From the NCBI GenBank assembly GCA_031082005.1, contig JAVHLR010000001.1, positions 1,121,251 to 1,185,250 on the forward strand: DNA of 64,000 nt. The letters are read 5' to 3'. This stretch comes from Patescibacteria group bacterium (lineage in GTDB: Bacteria > Patescibacteriota > Patescibacteriia > 2-12-FULL-60-25). Positions 5,340-49,219 of this stretch are shown in pieces. The position numbers and the translations under genes are program-made. The notes under the pieces were generated by a model. The model was not told the origin of the DNA, ran no database searches, and was given only the letters and a program-made list of their open reading frames with translations. Numbering within the stretch: the stretch's first letter is position 1; each line of letters starts with the position of its first letter.

Positions 5340-5706
5340 GTCAAATCAACGACCGAGTCCCGCAGCAAAGGAACCCACCCTATACCTCCGAAAGCGAACC
5401 GGAATGCTTGGGCTCTTAACCGAGGACCTACCCGCCCCGCCGCTCGCGAGCAGCGGGGTAAAAGATAAACTAGACAAGCCCCGCTCAATCATCTTTCCTC
5501 TCACAGGACTGCAACTAATGGGTTCCTGAAGCGAGGACTGTTTGAGGCCGTCATAAAATAAACAACCGCCAAGTTCCGCAGCAAAGGAACTCACCATACA
5601 CCTTCCCTCCCCAAAGCGAACCGGAATGCTTGGGTTCTTAACCGAGGACCTGTTCGAGATAGACTTGACGAGCCCCGCAGGTAAGAACCCAAGCATTCCG
5701 GTTCGC
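5340..5706. repeat. Cluster of partly duplicated palindromic repeat elements
   Basis: CGCAGCAAAGGAAC(C/T)CACC...AAGCGAACCGGAATGCTTGGG(C/T)TCTTAACCGAGGACCT occurs twice (about 5360-5430 and 5577-5650), with a third, GAGGACTGTTTGAG-type element between (about 5520-5591). Confidence 0.85.
5616..5706. repeat. Palindromic element copy 1: 25-bp perfect inverted repeat around a conserved core
   Basis: GCGAACCGGAATGCTTGGGTTCTTA (5616-5640) and exact reverse complement at 5682-5706; core ACCGAGGACCTGTTCGAGATAGACTTGACGAGCCCCGCAGG. Confidence 0.95.
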
Positions 5707-5718
5707 GCCCCAATCTCC

Positions 5719-5747
5719 TTGACCAATCCCTAAATTCCTGATACATT
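5719..5747 (+). promoter_or_regulatory. Sigma-70 type promoter for the orphan 245-aa gene
   Basis: TTGACC-N17-TACATT. Confidence 0.6.
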
Positions 5748-6638: not shown

Positions 6639-9600
6639 CTACGGCGCCACACCCAACTGCAACGCCCCCTTAAATACGACCCACGGTCTGTAGAACGAAC
6701 CACCGTTTTCAGGATCGCACATATTATTCTTATTTTGTGATTGGGCGACGTTCAAAGACAACGTCGGATCGGAATTCCAATATACTCCGCTCGCGTCATA
6801 ACATCCGCCATTGGGCAGCAGAATGTTATTTCTGGCGACGCCTCCGCCATCTTTGAAACCAGGGCCGAGCTTACCGCCGCCCAAATCTTGGACACGGCAT
6901 TCACCCGTACACCAACCCCAGTTATCTTTCACCAGGACGCGAGGCGTATAGCGGCAGGCGGCATTCGTATCGTCGAAGCATCCACCAGGTTCGGCAGTAT
7001 TCGGGACGCACGTATCACCCTTTGCGCATGACGTGGACGAGGAACATTCTCGCGTATTATCACGCGAACAATGTCCGGTGACGTTAGCGCACTTGTAATC
7101 CGCATCTATCTGTTGCGACTTGTCACAGGTATAGACATGCGTAAACTCGAAGTAGTTCTGTTCACAGGCCGCATCGCTGGAGCCGAACCCTACGCGGACA
7201 TTACACGTATCGTCGCCCACGGACCCCGCCCGACAATCCTGATCCGTATGGCACGATACTTCCGGCTTGCGGTTACAGCTTCCCGTGTCAGTACACCGAC
7301 CTGCGGCAGGCGGACAATCGTTATCCGAACTGCAAGTCAAACCGGGTACGAATTCGCACTCTTTACTCACGCCGCAGAACGGTTTCTTGTTCTTCATCCT
7401 GACGTCGTCCAGTTTCTGCTGCGTCCCGTCACCCCAATCGATCGTCATTTCCTTCAAGCCCATCTGGTTATCCGCCGCCCAAGCATAGAATCGCATGGTC
7501 ACGATGGCTTGTCCGCCCACGTAAGCGACCTTGCCCTCCGTCAGGCCTTCCAAGCTGAACGCGTCCACCGTGGAAATCGGACATTGGCCAGCTGATGCGC
7601 ATTGTCGGTTGGTATCAGGTGCAGCAAGGCGCGGCGGCTTCGGCGCATAATATGAGATGTAGGTGAAATCAGTGGCGTAGTCAGTTTTCGAAAAGCCATT
7701 CTGTTCTGCTATATACGTCGGCAAATGCAGACCGCCCGTCACGTCAGTCGGCGGCAGTCGTTTTTTCGCATCGAACGAGGCGATATAGCTTCCGCTGGTC
7801 GCGCTATCGCGTTGCGATACTCCGGTCAGACACTCCGGTCGCTTCGGATCAAGACCGCACAAGTCAACGCGCGGTCGATATCCAGCCTTATGTGTACAGG
7901 AGTTATTATCCCTATCCAAATCAGTCGTATTAGCATCACCGTCCGGATCTTCACAGTCGAATGATGTGCCGTATACCGTGCCTTTACTCGGTACGTTCCC
8001 GACCATAGTCACAGGCTGGCAATAGAATTGAGAATTCCACTGCTGATCATCGGTCGCCCAAGATGGCTTACAATCTTTTTCGTCCTGGCAGAAACTTCCT
8101 TCCTTCGCGCCAAGTTCGCAGATACCCGGACTCGAACTGGAACCACGCCAACGGGTCAAACCAGTACCTGTAATTTTGAAATACGGCACGTCAGGCGGAT
8201 AGGCCTGCGCAGTACAATCAGCTTCGCCTCCTGGAAAATTTCCCAGCGCGAATTCCTTACACCTTGTAGCATCAACCGCCAGCTTCTCGCAATGTCCAGG
8301 GATGAAGATATCCGCAGCCTCTGGGGTACCGCCCTGTTTATTCACGACTTTCAGATTATTCACAGTCTCTAGCGTGAAAGCACCCGGGAACCTGAACAAA
8401 TCCAAACCAGTACCCTGTGATCCATGGAGTAGATATCTCAAATTATTGAATTCCTTCCCTGCCAAATCCTTACTCGGCGATTGGCCGTCAGTTCCCTTCC
8501 ACAGCTCATAATCCTTACTCGGCGATTGGCCGTCAGTTCCCTTCCACAGCTCATATCCGCCGCTTGTCCAGTTATCCATCCAATACAGGTTACCCAAGTT
8601 ACCTAAGCCGGCCCAATCTGCAGTATTGTTCAATACTGCGCCGTTGAGCGGATAATTCGTATTGACCGTTCCTGGCGAACTTACTGTATTGCTATAGAAT
8701 ATCCCCACAAAAGCCGTACCCAAATCATCACTCGGTATCACCGCATGCCTCGTCGGATATGGCATCGGCTTATCAGGCATACCCGCTGGTTTGGACATAT
8801 CGTTGTACCACCAATTGGCCCAAGTGAATGAACAACCTGAACCCTCGTTACAGCGCACATGCTCATAACCTGGCGTAGAGCAGAAACCAGTCGAATAATT
8901 ACAACTGCCGAATACCTCCACCGGACAATCCGTCGATGGCTTACCTCCGCTCGGCTTACGGCACCACGACTGCTTGCCGTCCGGGAAATGTACGGCGTCA
9001 TCCGCGCACCAGAAAGCCCCGGCTTTTGCAGCGCTTGTCCTCACCAGATTTTTACAGTCTCCGTTCTGACCATCAGCCACGCAGTCAGCTTTGATAGCGG
9101 CGATCTCTGTCTGACAAGCAGTCAGATCCGCTCCAGATATGCCGGAGCATGGGTCTGCTTTAAGGGAATAGAGGCTTGAATTCGTCATCTGCTCCCAATA
9201 ATCGCTCATGCCACAAGACGTAAACTGCGGAGCCAGCTTACCGTTCACGTTCTTTACCGGTCCTCCGTGACACACATCATACTGACCGATATCGATTCCT
9301 CCGCCTGGACCGCAAGCCAAACCGGCATTCACTCCAGAAAGCGAATTACAGAAAGCCAAACTCGGATCTTTCAGATCAATCAAATCAGGATTACAGTCTC
9401 CCTGATATCCACAATACTTTGCCGAAGAAGTAGCGCCCTCGTCCCATACGGCATAACCGGAGCAAGTCTTATCCAACAAAGGATTACATGCGGTAGCCCC
9501 GCCGGAATCCGTGCCCGTGTAATACTTTGACAAATCCGGACAGCGTTCGCCCTGTCGAGGACCCGACATGCAAGTCCAGCTCGACTTGGTCACCGGCTGT

Positions 9601-12600
9601 TCATTCCATCGATATATCTTATAGATTTTCGCGAAGATATTGCTCAACCAACCCCAGTTACCTGTCGGGGCTTCACCTAAACGGAAATATTCCGCACCCG
9701 ATAACAAGAAAGTTGGCTTATTAGCTCCGGACTTGTACTGCGTCTTATCCAGCGCACCAGACATGATAAGGGGTTCCTCACCGATTTTCTTGGTGTGTTT
9801 CGCCGCACCGAACGGATTATTCGTCGTACCGACATTGAATCCTAGACTTGGTATGGCGTACGACCCCTGATCCCACACGCGATCCGTGTATGCCGCCGTA
9901 TCCCCCGCACTCTCCGAAGCTACGCTACCTACTTCCTTACAGATGTCTGCATGCCCGACATCCATATACATGTAGATATACCGCTCGTTCGTCAATCCAG
10001 GGAAACTCGCCGTGACCCACCAACCAACGAACTTGAACGGGCCAGCCAACTGGCTTCCTGAAGGATCAGATTGGTCTTCCGCGACGGCGTTATCTTCCGG
10101 CACCGTGTCTTCGAACATGGCACGTATGGCGAAATACGGCTTGCCGCCTTCGCTCTCGGCGTAGAACACATCCTCTCCCTTCAGCTCGCGCGGTCCGCCA
10201 ATCGATTCATTGAATCTGCGGAACTTGGATTGTCCATCAGCTCGGAATCCCATTTCCCAATACTTGTAATAGCAATAGTTGTCGCCTTCAGGGCCCGAAT
10301 GTGCTTTATCCTTACACGGTAATCGGATTAAACGCGTACCATCCTCGTTCGTGAGATAACCCGATCCTTGGGGAGTCAGTCTCTTGATCTCCGCCATTTC
10401 GCGTTTGACTATTTCGTTACCGGCCTTGTCCCATCCTGCCGTTCCGGCCTCTGTCGGGAATTGGTCGACCCACCAGCCGGATTGGCCGCAAGCCCACGTT
10501 CCACCCGCACCAGTCTTATACATCGGCTTGAAATCGAAATACGTGAAGTTAGTTTCAAGCGACGCCTTCTCTATCTCTTCGGCTGTCGGCGCGGTCTTGT
10601 TTATCAACCATTCGGTCCAAGCCTTATCATTGAACTCGACGAAATATTCAGCATAGTTCCTGTTCTTACCGCGACCCGTGGTTATCCAACGTCCGGCAAG
10701 AGTATCTTCAGCATATGCTTGCGCGCCAAAAGCATTACGCCCCTGCCCACAAGCCGCTCCGCTATCCGTACCGCGGACAGACAGACCGTCTATCGTCGAA
10801 CCCCAACCGCAGTTGTTCTCATACCAATTCTTATAATCGCCCGATCCGCCAATCCAACCATTCCAGGTCATGTTATAGGGCATCGGTACGGCCCAATCGG
10901 AAATCGCTCCGGGATCCTGGACAAAACACTCGTTATACCAGAAATAGCTCATCTTGCCCGGTGCCTTAGCGATCAAATAACCAGGCTTATCCAATGAGAC
11001 AGCCGGAGCCACAGGTGCGGATATCTTGATACCTCCACCAGCTGCTCCCGGGGAACCAGGAGAAAAATCCCACTCCGTCAATACATTCGGCATCTGCGCC
11101 TTCAACACCCTTGGCTCCTTGGCGCTGGACAAGCAATAATATTCCCCGGAATTCATCGGCGGCAGATAACCGGCCGTGGGCTGATAGTGATACACGTCTT
11201 GTTTGCCCTGCAATACCGGAGTCGGACTCCAGACCAAGCATGGATGAAGGTCCTGCGTATTTCCCAGCGTCCTCGAATAATCATATTGCAGACAATTTCC
11301 GAAGATACCACGTATCAACGAGCTTGATTGCAACTCGCTGCAGGCACCTCCCGATCCGCAATCGCGACCATCAAAATCGGCATTCCCGGCGGTCGTACTG
11401 GCACTTGAAGCTTGATTCTGCAAAGCCGCACCCGGAGTACAAGACTGCCCATTGCGCGCTCCCCCGATACACACGCCCGATGGCGATGTGCCGCTATACG
11501 GCGCGTAATATTTATACATTCCGCCGTAAGACAGACGACGATAACTGCAATCGCAATCTTCGCCATACTCGCACAAAGACACTCCATCGAAACCCGGCTG
11601 ATATTTGATCGGTTGCGGCGGGTCCTTCACGTAATCCCATTCGATCACGAACTTGTTCGGATACGGGGCAGCTGAATCCGGATATGCACGGCAAGTAGAA
11701 CCGGGGAAAGCTTGAGCCAACGTGGCGTTGTCTTTCACCTTTTCATCCTGCGTGAAGGCCACGGAAGCATTCTGTACGTTCCTCTCATTGATGCTGGCGA
11801 TGATCAGCTGGGAATAGGCTTTATCGATCGCTGTATAGCAGTAATCCGGCGTGCCCGCTGCTTTTTCGATATAATAACCGATTGCGCCAGTCTGTTTGAT
11901 TTTGCACAACTTCAAATAGTTGAATTTGAGATCCGAATACGTCTCGGCCTGGCTCCACGGTACTGCTGCGACTGCACGATATTCGTTAGTCAAACCAGGC
12001 TGCAGATCCCCCAACCTAGTTGACATCAACTCGTATGCCATCCTACGCGTCTGGATATCGGGTATCTGATAATGATTGGGCAGCGTATAACCCGAATAAT
12101 CCCAGTCCGTGAACGTTACTTCCCTATCGGCGTATGTATCATGGTCAAGAAAGCTACCCTGCCACAAAACAGCCTGTGTCGTCGTCGATTTACGATCGAT
12201 GTAATGATTACAGAATTGGCTTTCTGTCGTACCCGATAACTGATCGCAGAGCGACAAAGCCGTACATAAATCCACGTACTTACCTTGCGCCGGATCAAAT
12301 ACGGTCTCTTGCGTTGAGCACCCGAGCCAAGCCTGACAATCGCGATCCAACTTGACCTTCATCACGATATTCGAGTCGTTCAACGAGCACCGCCCCGTCG
12401 CGACAAAACCATAAGAGTGGTCGTCAGACGTATCGTTCGAACAATCGGCATCCGTCGAACATGAAGCGTTCTGCGTCTGGCTAAGCCAAGAAGATACGTA
12501 TGGGTCCGTCACGCAATCATAACCGCCGGGTGTGCCTCCAGGATTCCCAGCGCAATTGACGACTTTGATGTCAACGCATGACCCGGCGTTTTTGCAGAAC

Positions 12601-15600
12601 TCGCTATCCGGATCGCTGACGCAATTGACCGGGTTTGTCGCCACATCGCCTTCCGCGTGTGACTTGGCATAAGATGCCTTAGTGCTGAAATTCAGACGAC
12701 TGTCATTCATGTCACGGAACAACACGCATCCCGAAAGAGGATCTATCTTGCCGTTACAGGTCGATTTATCCAATAATTGATTATTGATGAAATAGTACGG
12801 TTTGCCTTGCAGATGAGACTGGTCGGAATGATCGTTAGTGTCACGGAATTCAGTACATTCTGATTGGTCGGCAGGACAAGCCGATGTCGTACCGCGGTAG
12901 TTCGGCGAGCCTGAAAACTCTCCGAGGAAAGTATGTCCTCCACCGAGCTTTTCGGGATAGCATGGTTGCGGCGGCGAAGAATCCTTCACGAACCAGCCTG
13001 AATATTCCCCCTTCGGATATGTCGGGTTGCTTGATGCTTCGAGCTCCACCTTGTCGTGCCATTCGCAGATATGTTCCAAGGGAGCACGGAAGTAAGACGT
13101 AACCGGGCCGCTCACGAACTTATCGCATAACAGCTCGCTCGGACGGCACAGCATCTGCGGTTCGTTGCCGCTATCTACATATTTAGTGATGTCGTCCTTC
13201 AGATACACGGTCTCTATCGTCGATGTCGGTATTCCCAAGTTATCGAATTTCTGTTTGCCGAAAGCGCGACATGACATCTGACTTTGGTCGCAACGGAACG
13301 CCGGATCATCGACGACATAGATGAATCTATCAGCCGACTTGTTCACCGTCACCGTACCTGCATACAGACTGTCCCAAGGCTTCGCGTCCTGCGGCACTGG
13401 CAGCCCTTCCAGGAAGTACTGCTGACCGTATGGATCGTCGCTATTTTGGGTATCCACGAAAGCCGTACAACCGATCAGATCATAACGGCACAATCGCGAG
13501 AACTGCCTGACTGTCACATAGCCGCCGTTCCTATCCTTATATTCACGGCAACCCAACATCGCCTGTGCCTGCGGTACGCCTTCAGGCGTCATGTCGCATT
13601 CCGTAGGTATGACCCATGAACCCTTGATGACATATGATACGTCCTGCAGCCTTTGGATACTGATTTCATCCAAGTAAGAGACGTTGGGCATACCAACCCA
13701 GCTCAATGTCACCTTACCCGCCTGCGTCGTCTTGAATGGTCCGATCTCAAATCGTTTCCAATCGCTGGATGCCTTGAACGCTCCCACGGTAGTCGGACCT
13801 AAATTGACGTTTACCGTCTTAGCCGTGGCGACCGTCGACTTATACCAGAAACTGACCGTGTACAAAGTCCCGGTAGCCGCATCGAAATCGACGTTGATCG
13901 TTGTCGCCTGGCTGGTGTTGCTGTTCTGGATCTGTAAAGAATAATCCCCCACCAACAAAGCTTCAGTCGAGACTTTCAACGTAACCGTCGATTGCGCGGT
14001 GTACACCGGAACATTCCCCGCCGCATCCTTGAATGCCTCGTAGAAGACATTCGCCGTATTGCGGCCACGTGATCCCAGATAAGCGCGACAACCGGCATTC
14101 GCCATAGCACACTCATTGCTCTCGCTGGCGAGAATGTGATAGACACAGTCATTGGTCGTCTGGCGGTAATCCCCGCCGGTCTTTATGCAATCGTCGGCGT
14201 TCTGGTTATTCTTGCGATAGTCCACACAAGACGCGCTGGAGACGATAGTCTGCGAAAAATACCGATAGTAAGCTTGGCCGTTCTCATCGTAAATCTGACG
14301 GCAATCCAAATCAGCGCCGTCTTTCCAGTTCTGTTCGTCGCAACCGCTTGGATCCTTAAGTACCCCATCAGGGCCGGCTTTACGCAGGATCTGCGGCCCT
14401 CCTGCCGTCTCTTTGATCAAGCTCCAGGTACGCAGCTGGTAGCCCGTCGCTTCAGAGCCCTCCCATGTGAAATACGTAGTGGATTTATCATTCGGTTTTT
14501 GGCAGGCGCGGGCGTATGTCAGATATATCGTCTCTTCACCGCCACCAGCCGCTGCCTCCAAGTTAGTGAAGGCCTCGCAACCGACCTGGTCGGCGCTACA
14601 CTGTTCGGCATTCTTCGGCACGAAATTTGCCGTCGTGTCATCGTTCGGATCGGTCAAAGGATCAGTCGCGGGATTCGCCGCACCGGTCTTCACCAAATCG
14701 AAAGCCGAGGGCATCTTCAAGTATTCGGCATAACCGACACAGCTATTAGGACAATAATCACCCGTCGACAGTATAGCCGGAATTTCAGTCGGATCAGCGC
14801 CCGATGCATCAGTATAGCCTTGGCACCCGGCGTCCAACTGTGAGCACATCCGCGCAAAATCGCTGCATTCTGTCCGGTCGCTCTTATCGTCGCCCGTGCA
14901 TTTGAATTCATCCGGCGGCAATTTCAGATATTGCGTCTTAAGATCGCCAGCCAGCATCTCGACGTATTCAGTCGATTTATCCCCTTCCTCAAGTTGTACG
15001 TCCTCGATAGCTGCGTTCACTCCGCCGACGAAAATCCTTCCGGCGGTCGCATCCGCATTCGACACGAACTCACATGTGAACCTTTGCCATTCTTCGGTCA
15101 ACTGACTGGTTCCCGCGCTGACCGTGTTGTTCGAATTGATGAATGACGGCAGGCTCACGGCCAGATTCGCGCTATTGGTGATACATGCTCCGCTCCTGAA
15201 ATACGTCTGGCCGACCACCGTACTCACGACCGTCGATTGTTGCAGCGACGGCGAAATGGTCTTCGACAAGACCAAGCTCACCGAAGCCTTATGGGTTCCC
15301 GAGGTGTTATTCGCCCGTGCATAGAAAGACAAGGCGTAATTCCTTAACGGCGCGACCAAAACCGCCTGATAAGGCCCAGCCTGATAATCTGGAGACGTCT
15401 TGATCTCTATACTGCGTGAACCGGAACGACTCGAATCTCCGGAATCAGCGACGAATACCGTCGGCACATAGGGAGATTTATCCTGAAATATCTTCCAGCC
15501 GTCAAGCTTGCCCGGAGCCGAAGCATCGTCGTATTCGAACGAACTGTTTTTCACCAAATTCAATGAAGGCTTACCTTGATTGACCTTAAGCACCTTAGTG

Positions 15601-17696
15601 CAACCGTCCCCCGACGCATCACACTTTTCGACAGTGGAATCGAAATAAACCCTTGATGTTTCCAGGAATATATTCTTGACGACCCCGTTGACCTTAGTGG
15701 TGAAGCCATGATCCACCCATTTACCGGTTGTTGTCGTACTTACATCATGTTTTGTCATGTAGTACATACAACCGATATTGTCCTGGTTACATGAGCCGTA
15801 ATCGATGGTATTGCGGATTAGCGAAAGGGCGTCGCCGCCATGCGGACCGCTATCGCGGGAAGTATAAGTACGGCAACTGACGTATTTTTCGTCACACTGG
15901 TCGCCACCAAAGCGCCAAACCGTCTTTTCCGCCATGCAGTATCCGTAAGCCCCGGTACAGTTTCCCTTATCATCGCGTTGCAGACATGAGACCAAATCAG
16001 TGCATTCCTGTAGACGTGCGTTCGTACTTGGAGCAATCAAGGACTCGCCAAAGCCGTTCAGTTGGCACTTAAAAGGAGGTGCTGTCAAAACCCATGTAGG
16101 ACTGATGAGATGACACCAAGGATGGGTCGCGTCAGCCAAACCCTCATCATTACAATCGCTGAAGCCTCTGACTACAGCCTCCAGAGTCACATATTTACCG
16201 TTGACTTTCTTGTTATACGGCGAATTTGCAGCCAACTCCCAGCCTATCGGGATAATGCGTGCAAAACGAAGTTTCGCCAGGTTTGAAGCACAATAAGCGC
16301 GCTGGAAACAACCAGGATCCTGGTTATCTTTGTTTTCCGTCACCGGAATGAGCTCCCAATCCTTGTGCAGTACTGCCTGGAGCCCCTCATCGTTCGCGAC
16401 AATCCCTGCCGCTTTCAACACCGTCAAGCCACCTGCCGTGCTCCCCTGCTGTAACGCATTAGCCAAACCTTCATCCAACGTACAGTTCCAATAACTACGT
16501 GAATCGGAACAGACCGACATCTCGGTCAAGAAATTTATTTCGTCCGAACCGCGCAGATTCGGCGTTATTATGTCAGTAAAAATCTTCTTCGGCCCGCTGC
16601 CCGTTCGTGGCTCGGCGCTCGTCTGTGCATACGGATTCGTCAAATCGACCTGATAGACGTTCGACTCCGCCTCGCTCGTATCAGTGAACCACCAGTTGAT
16701 GAGTTTATTCAAAGCACCTTCCGCCAAGGTCGTCAGGAACGTCATACCAGCGATCACCGGCAATTGTTTGACGCCGGCCCACATTGCGCTCATGGCCAAG
16801 GTGTTCATCTCGGAGAACGTGACCTCGTTCATCGATTTCACCGCGTTCGATTCCGCCAAAGTCTGTTCGATGATCAACGCCGGTGTCTTGATGCTGGTGC
16901 TCAAAGGACCGACGGTCGCCGTCTGCATGCCGCGGTTCTCTTGACGTTGCAGTTCGGCCGACTTCTTGGCCTCCTCACGCCCGATGACCGCCATGCTGTT
17001 GATGCGCAGCTGCAGCTCCATCGGATTGTTCGCCCCACGATCTATGCCGCTCAACAGATTACTCACGACTTCACGCGGTTGGAGCTGTTTGTAGACCGCA
17101 GAAAAATTCTGGTAGATTTTCTGATAAGTACAATCTGGCTCCGGCGGTTCGGGCAATCTCGCAAAAGGAATGCGCAATTTGAAATCCAGATTGATCGGTT
17201 GGCACAACCCCAAACCCCACTCCTTATCCACGCCATCGATGAAGCGATTAGTGAAATCCTGCGCCACATCACCCAAAAAGTCCTTGAATGATTGCCTGAA
17301 GAATGACGGCTTGCCGTGCATGCCTTCGAGCACCCACTCCGCCATGCTCTGCGACATGCGCATCACATACTTATTCAAAGTGTTCAACATGGCTCGCACC
17401 ACGATGAACTGCAACATGCCCTTACCTTCAGCGATACGCATCTTGAAGATATTGGCGTATTGACAGTCGTTTGAAGAGGCCATCCCTACTCCATAGGGTG
17501 CATTCAGCATCATCTGACAAGCCTGGATGTTCCAATGCGCCGCATATGCCGCCGGGAGATAAGCCGGGTCTTCTTCTACCGTGATGGCCTGCGCCGGTCG
17601 CGGCGACCAACCCACCGACAACACCAGCATCAACGCTCCGGCTACGCCCATCCCTGCCTTGGCGATATGACGGTAAAAATCCCTCGTGGCTTTCAT
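6639..17696 (-). CDS. Giant (3685 aa) secreted cysteine-rich protein
   Basis: Single uninterrupted ORF; signal-peptide-like N-terminus ending AQA; many Cys clusters (e.g. CSSDNDCPPAAGRCTDTGSC); two CBM-like stretches (SFEYDDASAPGKLDGWKIF..., FYEAFKDAAGNVPVY...); PKD-like MTIDWGDGT near the C-terminus. Confidence 0.9.
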   Translation of the reverse strand: MKATRDFYRHIAKAGMGVAGALMLVLSVGWSPRPAQAITVEEDPAYLPAAYAAHWNIQACQMMLNAPYGVGMASSNDCQYANIFKMRIAEGKGMLQFIVVRAMLNTLNKYVMRMSQSMAEWVLEGMHGKPSFFRQSFKDFLGDVAQDFTNRFIDGVDKEWGLGLCQPINLDFKLRIPFARLPEPPEPDCTYQKIYQNFSAVYKQLQPREVVSNLLSGIDRGANNPMELQLRINSMAVIGREEAKKSAELQRQENRGMQTATVGPLSTSIKTPALIIEQTLAESNAVKSMNEVTFSEMNTLAMSAMWAGVKQLPVIAGMTFLTTLAEGALNKLINWWFTDTSEAESNVYQVDLTNPYAQTSAEPRTGSGPKKIFTDIITPNLRGSDEINFLTEMSVCSDSRSYWNCTLDEGLANALQQGSTAGGLTVLKAAGIVANDEGLQAVLHKDWELIPVTENKDNQDPGCFQRAYCASNLAKLRFARIIPIGWELAANSPYNKKVNGKYVTLEAVVRGFSDCNDEGLADATHPWCHLISPTWVLTAPPFKCQLNGFGESLIAPSTNARLQECTDLVSCLQRDDKGNCTGAYGYCMAEKTVWRFGGDQCDEKYVSCRTYTSRDSGPHGGDALSLIRNTIDYGSCNQDNIGCMYYMTKHDVSTTTTGKWVDHGFTTKVNGVVKNIFLETSRVYFDSTVEKCDASGDGCTKVLKVNQGKPSLNLVKNSSFEYDDASAPGKLDGWKIFQDKSPYVPTVFVADSGDSSRSGSRSIEIKTSPDYQAGPYQAVLVAPLRNYALSFYARANNTSGTHKASVSLVLSKTISPSLQQSTVVSTVVGQTYFRSGACITNSANLAVSLPSFINSNNTVSAGTSQLTEEWQRFTCEFVSNADATAGRIFVGGVNAAIEDVQLEEGDKSTEYVEMLAGDLKTQYLKLPPDEFKCTGDDKSDRTECSDFARMCSQLDAGCQGYTDASGADPTEIPAILSTGDYCPNSCVGYAEYLKMPSAFDLVKTGAANPATDPLTDPNDDTTANFVPKNAEQCSADQVGCEAFTNLEAAAGGGEETIYLTYARACQKPNDKSTTYFTWEGSEATGYQLRTWSLIKETAGGPQILRKAGPDGVLKDPSGCDEQNWKDGADLDCRQIYDENGQAYYRYFSQTIVSSASCVDYRKNNQNADDCIKTGGDYRQTTNDCVYHILASESNECAMANAGCRAYLGSRGRNTANVFYEAFKDAAGNVPVYTAQSTVTLKVSTEALLVGDYSLQIQNSNTSQATTINVDFDAATGTLYTVSFWYKSTVATAKTVNVNLGPTTVGAFKASSDWKRFEIGPFKTTQAGKVTLSWVGMPNVSYLDEISIQRLQDVSYVIKGSWVIPTECDMTPEGVPQAQAMLGCREYKDRNGGYVTVRQFSRLCRYDLIGCTAFVDTQNSDDPYGQQYFLEGLPVPQDAKPWDSLYAGTVTVNKSADRFIYVVDDPAFRCDQSQMSCRAFGKQKFDNLGIPTSTIETVYLKDDITKYVDSGNEPQMLCRPSELLCDKFVSGPVTSYFRAPLEHICEWHDKVELEASSNPTYPKGEYSGWFVKDSSPPQPCYPEKLGGGHTFLGEFSGSPNYRGTTSACPADQSECTEFRDTNDHSDQSHLQGKPYYFINNQLLDKSTCNGKIDPLSGCVLFRDMNDSRLNFSTKASYAKSHAEGDVATNPVNCVSDPDSEFCKNAGSCVDIKVVNCAGNPGGTPGGYDCVTDPYVSSWLSQTQNASCSTDADCSNDTSDDHSYGFVATGRCSLNDSNIVMKVKLDRDCQAWLGCSTQETVFDPAQGKYVDLCTALSLCDQLSGTTESQFCNHYIDRKSTTTQAVLWQGSFLDHDTYADREVTFTDWDYSGYTLPNHYQIPDIQTRRMAYELMSTRLGDLQPGLTNEYRAVAAVPWSQAETYSDLKFNYLKLCKIKQTGAIGYYIEKAAGTPDYCYTAIDKAYSQLIIASINERNVQNASVAFTQDEKVKDNATLAQAFPGSTCRAYPDSAAPYPNKFVIEWDYVKDPPQPIKYQPGFDGVSLCEYGEDCDCSYRRLSYGGMYKYYAPYSGTSPSGVCIGGARNGQSCTPGAALQNQASSASTTAGNADFDGRDCGSGGACSELQSSSLIRGIFGNCLQYDYSRTLGNTQDLHPCLVWSPTPVLQGKQDVYHYQPTAGYLPPMNSGEYYCLSSAKEPRVLKAQMPNVLTEWDFSPGSPGAAGGGIKISAPVAPAVSLDKPGYLIAKAPGKMSYFWYNECFVQDPGAISDWAVPMPYNMTWNGWIGGSGDYKNWYENNCGWGSTIDGLSVRGTDSGAACGQGRNAFGAQAYAEDTLAGRWITTGRGKNRNYAEYFVEFNDKAWTEWLINKTAPTAEEIEKASLETNFTYFDFKPMYKTGAGGTWACGQSGWWVDQFPTEAGTAGWDKAGNEIVKREMAEIKRLTPQGSGYLTNEDGTRLIRLPCKDKAHSGPEGDNYCYYKYWEMGFRADGQSKFRRFNESIGGPRELKGEDVFYAESEGGKPYFAIRAMFEDTVPEDNAVAEDQSDPSGSQLAGPFKFVGWWVTASFPGLTNERYIYMYMDVGHADICKEVGSVASESAGDTAAYTDRVWDQGSYAIPSLGFNVGTTNNPFGAAKHTKKIGEEPLIMSGALDKTQYKSGANKPTFLLSGAEYFRLGEAPTGNWGWLSNIFAKIYKIYRWNEQPVTKSSWTCMSGPRQGERCPDLSKYYTGTDSGGATACNPLLDKTCSGYAVWDEGATSSAKYCGYQGDCNPDLIDLKDPSLAFCNSLSGVNAGLACGPGGGIDIGQYDVCHGGPVKNVNGKLAPQFTSCGMSDYWEQMTNSSLYSLKADPCSGISGADLTACQTEIAAIKADCVADGQNGDCKNLVRTSAAKAGAFWCADDAVHFPDGKQSWCRKPSGGKPSTDCPVEVFGSCNYSTGFCSTPGYEHVRCNEGSGCSFTWANWWYNDMSKPAGMPDKPMPYPTRHAVIPSDDLGTAFVGIFYSNTVSSPGTVNTNYPLNGAVLNNTADWAGLGNLGNLYWMDNWTSGGYELWKGTDGQSPSKDYELWKGTDGQSPSKDLAGKEFNNLRYLLHGSQGTGLDLFRFPGAFTLETVNNLKVVNKQGGTPEAADIFIPGHCEKLAVDATRCKEFALGNFPGGEADCTAQAYPPDVPYFKITGTGLTRWRGSSSSPGICELGAKEGSFCQDEKDCKPSWATDDQQWNSQFYCQPVTMVGNVPSKGTVYGTSFDCEDPDGDANTTDLDRDNNSCTHKAGYRPRVDLCGLDPKRPECLTGVSQRDSATSGSYIASFDAKKRLPPTDVTGGLHLPTYIAEQNGFSKTDYATDFTYISYYAPKPPRLAAPDTNRQCASAGQCPISTVDAFSLEGLTEGKVAYVGGQAIVTMRFYAWAADNQMGLKEMTIDWGDGTQQKLDDVRMKNKKPFCGVSKECEFVPGLTCSSDNDCPPAAGRCTDTGSCNRKPEVSCHTDQDCRAGSVGDDTCNVRVGFGSSDAACEQNYFEFTHVYTCDKSQQIDADYKCANVTGHCSRDNTRECSSSTSCAKGDTCVPNTAEPGGCFDDTNAACRYTPRVLVKDNWGWCTGECRVQDLGGGKLGPGFKDGGGVARNNILLPNGGCYDASGVYWNSDPTLSLNVAQSQNKNNMCDPENGGSFYRPWVVFKGALQLGVAP
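8466..8555. repeat. 45-bp exact tandem duplication inside the giant gene
   Basis: ATCCTTACTCGGCGATTGGCCGTCAGTTCCCTTCCACAGCTCATA twice in tandem, encoding YELWKGTDGQSPSKD x2. Confidence 0.97.
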
Positions 17697-23752: not shown

Positions 23753-23839
23753 ACGATGTTGGATAGGTTACTAAAAATACACTCTTTCGGGAAGAGGCGC
23801 GACTATTCTTTCTGCTTCTTCAACTGATGCAGTTTAAAC

Positions 23840-23915
23840 GATGACTCGATTTCTTGACCGAGGACCTGTTCGAGATAGATTGAAACGAGCCCCGCAGGTA
23901 AAAAATCGAGTCATC
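23840..23915. repeat. Palindromic element copy 2, same core with different arms
   Basis: GATGACTCGATTTCTT / AAAAAATCGAGTCATC arms (1 mismatch) around ACCGAGGACCTGTTCGAGATAGATTGAAACGAGCCCCGCAGGT. Confidence 0.93.
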
Positions 23916-23933
23916 CTCGGGCACCCTACCCTA

Positions 23934-45002: not shown

Positions 45003-45063
45003 GTCATTCCGAGCGCAGTCGAGGAATCTTTATATAAAGATCCTTCGACAAGCTCAGGATGAC
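45003..45063. repeat. Dispersed GTCATTCCGAG hairpin, copy 2
   Basis: GTCATTCCGAGCGCAGTCGAGGAATCTTTATATAAAGATCCTTCGACAAGCTCAGGATGAC. Confidence 0.92.
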
Positions 45064-45300
45064 AAAGGGAGTAATCCCTAGGCCGTGACTGTCATGTAGC
45101 CTTCGCTCAGGACGACAAAAATCATTCTCACGATAGACGTGGAGGAGAGAACACGGAGAGGAAAATTATGTGAACCGGCTCTTCGAGTTTAACTCGATGA
45201 CGCTGGTTCTCCATGAAAGTACTGATCCATCGGACAAGACGCGCTTCGGCGTAGTCGAGTCCCCTCTGCGTCCATCAGGAGAATATCGAGCGATTATTCT

Positions 45301-45364
45301 GTCATTTCGAGCAAAGTCGAGAAATCTTCCAGCTGGAAGATCCCTCCACGTTGGTCGAGATGAC
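45301..45364. repeat. Dispersed GTCATTTCGAG hairpin, copy 3, followed by a T-tract
   Basis: GTCATTTCGAGCAAAGTCGAGAAATCTTCC...GGTCGAGATGAC then ATTTTTTT. Confidence 0.88.
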
Positions 45365-45517
45365 ATTTTTTTATTCCATCACCGACGATCTTGTTAATAC
45401 CCCGCCTGTCTTAAACACCTCAAAAAGCGTTGAATTCAGACAGAAATCAATAATAAACGCTTAATTTAAATAAAAACTGTCTTTCTTATCTTTTGCTTTC
45501 ATTTTGTTCAATTGCCC

Positions 45518-49124: not shown

Positions 49125-49219
49125 GTACAGCAAGGGTTGATTTTTCATGCAGTGAGGACTGTTTGAGCGAGCGAAGCGAGCGAGTTCCGGAACAAATGAA
49201 AAAACAACCCTTGCTGTAC
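49125..49219. repeat. Palindromic element copy 3, subfamily with GAGGACTGTTTGAG core
   Basis: GTACAGCAAGGGTTGATTTTTCAT / ATGAAAAAACAACCCTTGCTGTAC arms (1 mismatch) around GCAGTGAGGACTGTTTGAGCGAGCGAAGCGAGCGAGTTCCGGAACAA. Confidence 0.93.

Follow-up and report, generated by a model that had tools for sequence, protein, structure and literature searches.

The window, by which we mean the whole 64,000-nucleotide (nt) stretch of DNA that was analyzed, belongs to genome G000, a complete-looking 1.31-Mb genome of Candidatus Uhrbacteria (Patescibacteria). It contains hairpin elements built around two conserved cores. The first core reads GAGGAYSTGTTCGAG-(10 to 12 variable nt)-CGAGCCCCGCAG, while the second consists of GAGGACTGTTTGAG, a variable inner segment that is often a stem, and CGAGTTCCGCAG. 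Positions 6639 to 17696 are occupied by an open reading frame (ORF) of 3,685 amino acids, large for a 1.3-Mb genome, whose predicted product is probably a secreted or surface protein, judging from its N terminus. The elements and their parts are as follows.

5344 to 5387, + strand: remnant of a second-core element, of which the right half is left, with 82% similarity to 5560 to 5603
5394 to 5488, + strand: damaged tandem copy beside copy 1, carrying the copy 1 left arm (95% over 42 nt), its core interrupted by a GC-rich hairpin
5519 to 5593, + strand: second-core element with arms GGGTTCCT/AGGAACTC and core GAGGACTGTTTGAG...CAAGTTCCGCAG, adjoining copy 1
5600 to 5615, + strand: pyrimidine-rich tract ACCTTCCCTCCCCAAA on the left side of copy 1, a tract common to most copies
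5616 to 5640, + strand: left arm of copy 1, 25 bp, fully complementary to 5682 to 5706
5641 to 5681, + strand: conserved core of copy 1, ACCGAGGACCTGTTCGAG-loop-CGAGCCCCGCAGG (covariance model match 5618 to 5706, 92.6 bits)
5682 to 5706, + strand: right arm of copy 1, pairing with 5616 to 5640
5707 to 5720, + strand: C-rich tract GCCCCAATCTCCTT on the right side of copy 1, a tract common to most copies
23840 to 23917, + strand: copy 2, arms of about 20 bp around a core at 23857 to 23898, in which GAGG starts at 23860 (model match 23834 to 23923, 81.3 bits)
49125 to 49219, + strand: second-core copy, core GAGGACTGTTTGAG...CGAGTTCCG, with 24-bp arms that are 96% complementary (model match 49128 to 49218, 41.9 bits)

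In copy 1, the core is enclosed by a perfect 25-bp inverted repeat (5616 to 5640 and 5682 to 5706). A 23-nt block of this copy was found again without any mismatch at 23857 to 23879, with ACGAGCCCCGCAGG at 23885 to 23898, and the 23-mer did not occur in shuffled sequences even when three mismatches were allowed. The arms of copy 2 (23840 to 23855 and 23900 to 23915) are complementary to each other and unrelated to those of copy 1. The sequence-only reading of this DNA had described just such a repeat around the core, the recurrence of the core at 23.9 kb and the self-complementary arms of other sequence there, and our coordinates agree with it on all three.

An initial search of G000 revealed more than 20 copies, the flanks of which were self-complementary and differed from copy to copy, with a few copies damaged on one side. 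Using a covariance model built from 21 copies, we found at least 29 copies in G000, at least 19 in its congener G003, at least 6 in G001 and at least 3 in G002 (E value below 1e-4), these counts being lower bounds because 150 candidates were scored per genome. The search of this genome and its relatives, proposed together with the original observation, thus produced many further copies with complementary arms, and such arms were lacking in damaged copies only. In intact copies, a core of 37 to 39 nt lies between arms of 26 to 29 bp that are unrelated among copies, and a bulged A is usually present between core and arm. The length of the arms is nearly constant, being 26 to 29 bp or close to it in 25 of the 28 intact copies of G000 and G003. 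The arms are preceded on the left by about 16 to 24 nt that are nearly free of G and, nearest the arm, 85 to 93% pyrimidine, and are followed on the right by 8 to 12 nt of which the first are about 70% C.

The arms pair without being conserved. Those of the 28 intact copies of the two genomes formed 697 Watson-Crick pairs, with only 13 G.T or A.C and 18 other mismatches, and when arms were swapped between copies, the mean alignment score was only 2.2. Across the 21 copies, 90.3% of arm cells were paired, versus 39 to 47% with the partner slid; 23 of the 25 arm pairs had changed on both sides, and the remaining two were invariant. Furthermore, G.T mismatches outnumbered A.C mismatches 81 to 29 over all groups, and hence the paired state itself seems to matter. 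It should be noted that this excess alone discriminates neither RNA nor DNA and would also fit an RNA structure, and that arm-to-arm templated correction could maintain pairing without selection. Within the portion of the genome that was sampled, the only other matches to the arms were tandem duplicates, and the idea that the arms are guides to, or copies of, other loci was dropped for this reason.

Copies are inherited vertically, with gain and loss between species. The flanks of copies were aligned with 600 kb of G003 and one G001 contig; the compared genomes are metagenome-assembled genomes or assemblies, and genes near the copies were called simply as the longest ORFs. For many copies, the intergenic site is the same in two species. 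Three orthologue pairs are unambiguous, and in these no position of the two core strands had changed (0/81) versus 14 of 125 arm positions (P = 0.001, several of our P values counting related copies as independent). Two paired double changes each were present at L027/L032 and at L028 and its G003 counterpart, in both of which the two arms are intact, making four among about 52 pairs examined by eye, while at L009 and at L003/L042 the arms are too diverged to separate descent from replacement. A copy had been gained or lost between congeners at about one-third of the compared sites, and tandem duplicates exist. At the L007 site, G003 lacks about 150 bp, the tract and the hairpin together; at the L008 site it carries another type of palindromic repeat instead and at the L019 site an element with a third core motif. 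The copy at L005 lies in frame within a 354-amino-acid ORF that reads, by eye, like prmC, and G003 has a different hairpin there. From the copy-less and the shared sites, it follows that copies are gained and lost and that the survivors keep both core and pairing.

These data bear on two proposals made from the sequence alone, that arms varying while pairing is kept reflect either a selected structure or a mobility mechanism that copies flanks. The covariation of the arms, checked by the pair counts above, the double changes in orthologues and the unchanged cores next to changing arms all support the former. The latter is not supported for existing copies, since the arms are passed on and evolve together at orthologous sites, are matched elsewhere in the sampled sequence by tandem duplicates only, and were not found singly and uncopied at any empty site compared with G003 or G001. 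Flank copying at the birth of copies is possible, and in this respect the near-identical 53-nt cores within unrelated perfect arms in genus g28 may be compared.

The orientation of the copies follows the chromosome and not the genes. Among the matches listed, 28 of 29 copies in G000 and all 19 in G003 (47 of 48 together) lie on one chromosomal strand, the C-rich lagging strand, and the lone exception in G000 corresponds to a degraded copy in G003 that is likewise reversed. With respect to neighboring genes in the two genomes, 5 copies were co-directional in sense, 16 co-directional in antisense, 8 between divergent and 2 between convergent genes, and 3 inside a gene in sense; the chromosomal strand was the same in co-directional sense, antisense and divergent contexts, so that direction is independent of genes. 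In G003, the GC skew amounts to about +0.11 between roughly 100 and 740 kb and falls to near zero between 760 and 1,450 kb; with dnaA at 1,497 kb, the skewed part corresponds to one replichore, and G000 exhibits the same half-and-half pattern. The model matched 36 times in 864 kb of skewed sequence (the window, L115 to L123 and 600 kb of G003, weak matches counted) versus 0 times in 368 kb of unskewed sequence (P of about 2e-7). In the whole-genome census, 44 of 48 copies among the matches listed were located in the skewed halves, and the few copies in unskewed halves were also on the shared strand. Restriction to the sole GC-skewed replichore links the element to the odd replication pattern of these genomes. 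As a side observation, the one-sided skew can be seen in G003:C1 (L244 to L273 and L284 to L301) and G000:C3 (L104 to L123); replication might proceed through the unskewed half from both sides.

At least 120 GTDB contigs, spread over many phyla, carry the second core, with variable stems. Its hosts among the matches listed include Beta- and Gammaproteobacteria, Lachnospiraceae, Coriobacteriia, Bacteroidales, Desulfobacterota, Myxococcota, Omnitrophota, Saccharibacteria and others. The second-core or both-type pattern was detected in 11 of 241 class genomes, a stricter second-core pattern in 2 of 288 genomes of a phylum sample, and the exact first-core pattern, which is patchy in its presence, in 2 of 38 relatives. 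Of 99 distinct inner segments that are at least 8 nt long, 47 are closed by a helix of 4 bp or more, versus 10.9 in shuffles. The outer arms are alike between copies in Gallionellaceae and genome G051, as in ordinary repeats, and unrelated between copies in Uhrbacteria and genus g28. In several Proteobacteria, the copies form outward-facing inverted pairs about 200 to 300 bp apart, reminiscent of REP doublets. Second-core copies in other genomes of the class lay on the locally C-rich strand in 20 of 23 cases. Among the matches listed for GTDB loci, the strand bias was weak (73:51) and, by eye, carried largely by Patescibacteria, and for this reason replication coupling may not be general.

We compared the element with known systems. 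It resembles REPs and REPINs in being a multicopy, intergenic, imperfect hairpin that sometimes occurs as inverted pairs and is linked to single-stranded lagging-strand DNA (PMC3733652, PMC6006769). However, the hallmarks of REPs in published surveys, namely GTAG, GTGG or CGTC tags and a Y1 transposase (PMC3733652, PMC6006769), did not accompany it. On the element strand, no GTAG or GTGG tag was present at the foot of any of 25 hairpins, and on the other strand 4 GTAG, 3 GTGG and no CGTC lay within 12 nt in the same number, which amounts to no consistent tag. Y1 transposase genes (PF01797) are absent from G000, genes or fragments occur in two congeners, and among class genomes Y1 presence showed no association with the core (10 of 13 versus 47 of 78; P = 0.36). 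Moreover, none of 20 fetched Y1 gene loci with flanks of about 1.5 kb contained the core. Within this sample, REP tags at the hairpin feet and mobilization by a Y1 transposase were both rejected on these grounds. In addition, arms here are much longer and differ in each intact copy, and the conserved sequence lies in the internal loop, whereas that of REPs and REPINs lies at the foot. The initial contrast with ordinary REP and MITE repeats is thus supported in part only, the lack of a consistent tag and of a Y1 gene in the genome having been added to it. On this comparison, we would class the element as one that works like a REP and not as a REP.

The ends of IS200/IS605 elements, on which the Y1 transposase TnpA acts, are likewise hairpins with recognized unpaired bases and prefer the lagging-strand template, where they act as single-stranded DNA (PMC6006769). 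Here, in contrast, neither a transposase nor a guide tetranucleotide was seen and the element is not an insertion-sequence end; an IS200/IS605 identity, which would place a TnpA gene between hairpin ends, was discarded in view of the Y1 results. Integron attC sites are recognized by structure over sequence, with stems free to vary, an extrahelical base and one active strand; their conserved boxes lie at the base, their tip is variable and they are found in cassette arrays. Unlike attC, our elements are dispersed, their conserved part is an internal loop with a variable stem on either side, and no RYYYAAC or GTTRRRY boxes were seen on reading the stem bases. The in-frame copy at L005 recalls the palindromic elements of Rickettsia, which lie inside genes, but most copies here are intergenic and the arms are not conserved. 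An intrinsic transcription terminator, with its short GC-rich stem, T run and gene-dependent orientation, was also rejected, because the flank is C-rich instead of T-rich and the orientation is gene independent. Beside the cores in 120 listed loci, no gene family recurred other than apparent frames that belong to the repeat, and no transposase was recognized by eye in the ORF translations between outward-facing pairs at two loci. Neither a plasmid blastn search with a betaproteobacterial copy nor a phage blastn search with copy 1 gave a match. Searches against Rfam, at the gathering threshold for the window and at loose E values for other loci, returned nothing relevant, and openly accessible main texts searched by motif sequence and topic contained no relevant paper. 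The element may be among the unnamed candidate motifs of a large RNA-motif survey (e.g., PMC8040213). No described repeat family was matched, and with one loop motif shared by copies that each have their own unrelated, self-matching arms and a common replication orientation, this hairpin repeat with a conserved loop, free arms and replication-related orientation is apparently an undescribed, widely distributed structured DNA repeat.

The explanation toward which we tentatively lean is a REP-like hairpin that acts as single-stranded DNA at the replication fork and is read via its conserved internal loop, with stems that are free while paired. One strand would fold so that a variable outer stem of 26 to 29 bp leads to an internal loop, asymmetric and conserved, and beyond it to a short inner loop or stem that varies. 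The internal loop would be formed by GAGGAYSTGTTCGAG facing CGAGCCCCGCAG, and by GAGGACTGTTTGAG facing CGAGTTCCGCAG in elements of the sister type. A putative protein supplied in trans would read this loop and measure the stem in the single-stranded DNA exposed at the fork, and consequently loop and stem length would be constrained and stem sequence free. A conserved loop, a near-fixed arm length and free paired stems are what would be expected if a protein, or the fold, did so, and an orientation that follows replication and not transcription points to single-stranded fork DNA as the relevant form. Drift of the stem sequence may proceed through compensatory changes or through templated correction of one arm by the other, and past spread may have occurred via such single-stranded intermediates. 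The copies could be either a past mobile element now under selection or a functional site throughout. Against this explanation we count the lack of an associated enzyme, the weak strand bias outside Patescibacteria and the G.T excess, which would fit RNA as well. If it is right, the element would represent a broadly distributed structured repeat missing from the RNA-family library, with the unusual rule that only the internal loop is conserved, the stems being free but paired and the orientation being set by replication instead of transcription. It would also offer a concrete motif for finding the binding protein, and the Uhrbacteria species would be a natural experiment on arms that drift yet stay complementary.

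The constrained core and the compensatory changes seen between orthologues, together with the restriction to one strand and replichore and the shared strand of the copies in the unskewed half, would also fit a site that never moved, a vertically inherited lagging-strand DNA site for fork loading, priming, pausing or chromosome orientation, in which core, pairing and strand are selected. We consider this somewhat unlikely, as copies were gained or lost at about one-third of the compared congener sites and tandem duplicates occur, the distribution is as patchy as the first-core pattern in 2 of 38 relatives suggests, and the sister core seems to be without strand bias in other phyla. A structured RNA from either strand, such as a hairpin in the 3'-untranslated region or a small RNA with a conserved internal loop, is an unlikely source of the pattern, since orientation tracks the chromosome across sense, antisense and divergent contexts and Rfam gave no match. 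Nevertheless, such RNAs typically combine variable stems with a conserved internal loop between them, the 81:29 excess of G.T over A.C would fit, and co-directional copies were antisense more often than sense (62:25), which would allow the reverse complement to be a 3' hairpin.

Readings that center on mobility fared worse. That the copies are true REPs, mobilized by a RAYT-type Y1 transposase later lost from G000, appears improbable: the intergenic hairpins, the inverted pairs in Proteobacteria, the lagging-strand bias and the Y1 genes or fragments in two congeners would suit it, but neither foot carries a consistent GTAG, GTGG or CGTC, G000 has no Y1 gene, the fetched Y1 loci lack the core and Y1 and core are not associated in the class. 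A mobile core that created its arms on inserting, by folding back and copying the flanking DNA, would account for the genus g28 cores in their unrelated arms and for the absence here of dispersed copies with shared arms. We regard it as highly improbable because the arms of orthologous loci are passed on and evolve together, because no empty site bears one uncopied arm and because arms are similar between copies in other lineages. Some insertion sequences insert into palindromes. That a small element similarly inserted at the tips of palindromes already present is nevertheless extremely improbable for these copies, and the idea was rejected, given that the arm length is too constant and that the 64 kb of the window contain few unrelated palindromes of similar length.

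Several further repeats were noticed in the course of these comparisons. The GC-rich hairpin insert CCGCCCCGCCGCTCGCGAGCAGCGGGGTRAAAGATA at about 5429 to 5466 also interrupts the core in the G003 counterpart of L028, as if a second small element targeted the core. The window also has palindromic repeats of a different type, TGTCATTTCGAG...GTCGAGATGACA, at 45300 to 45365 and 45018 to 45049, and repeats like these take the place of the hairpin in G003 at the L008 and L015 sites. The third core motif, in the G003 counterpart of L019, reads GCCGAGCAACGGAG ... GCGAGTAGCGGAGGC and lies inside self-complementary arms; GAG-NNN-CGCAGG motifs like it form an outer internal loop in betaproteobacterial copies.
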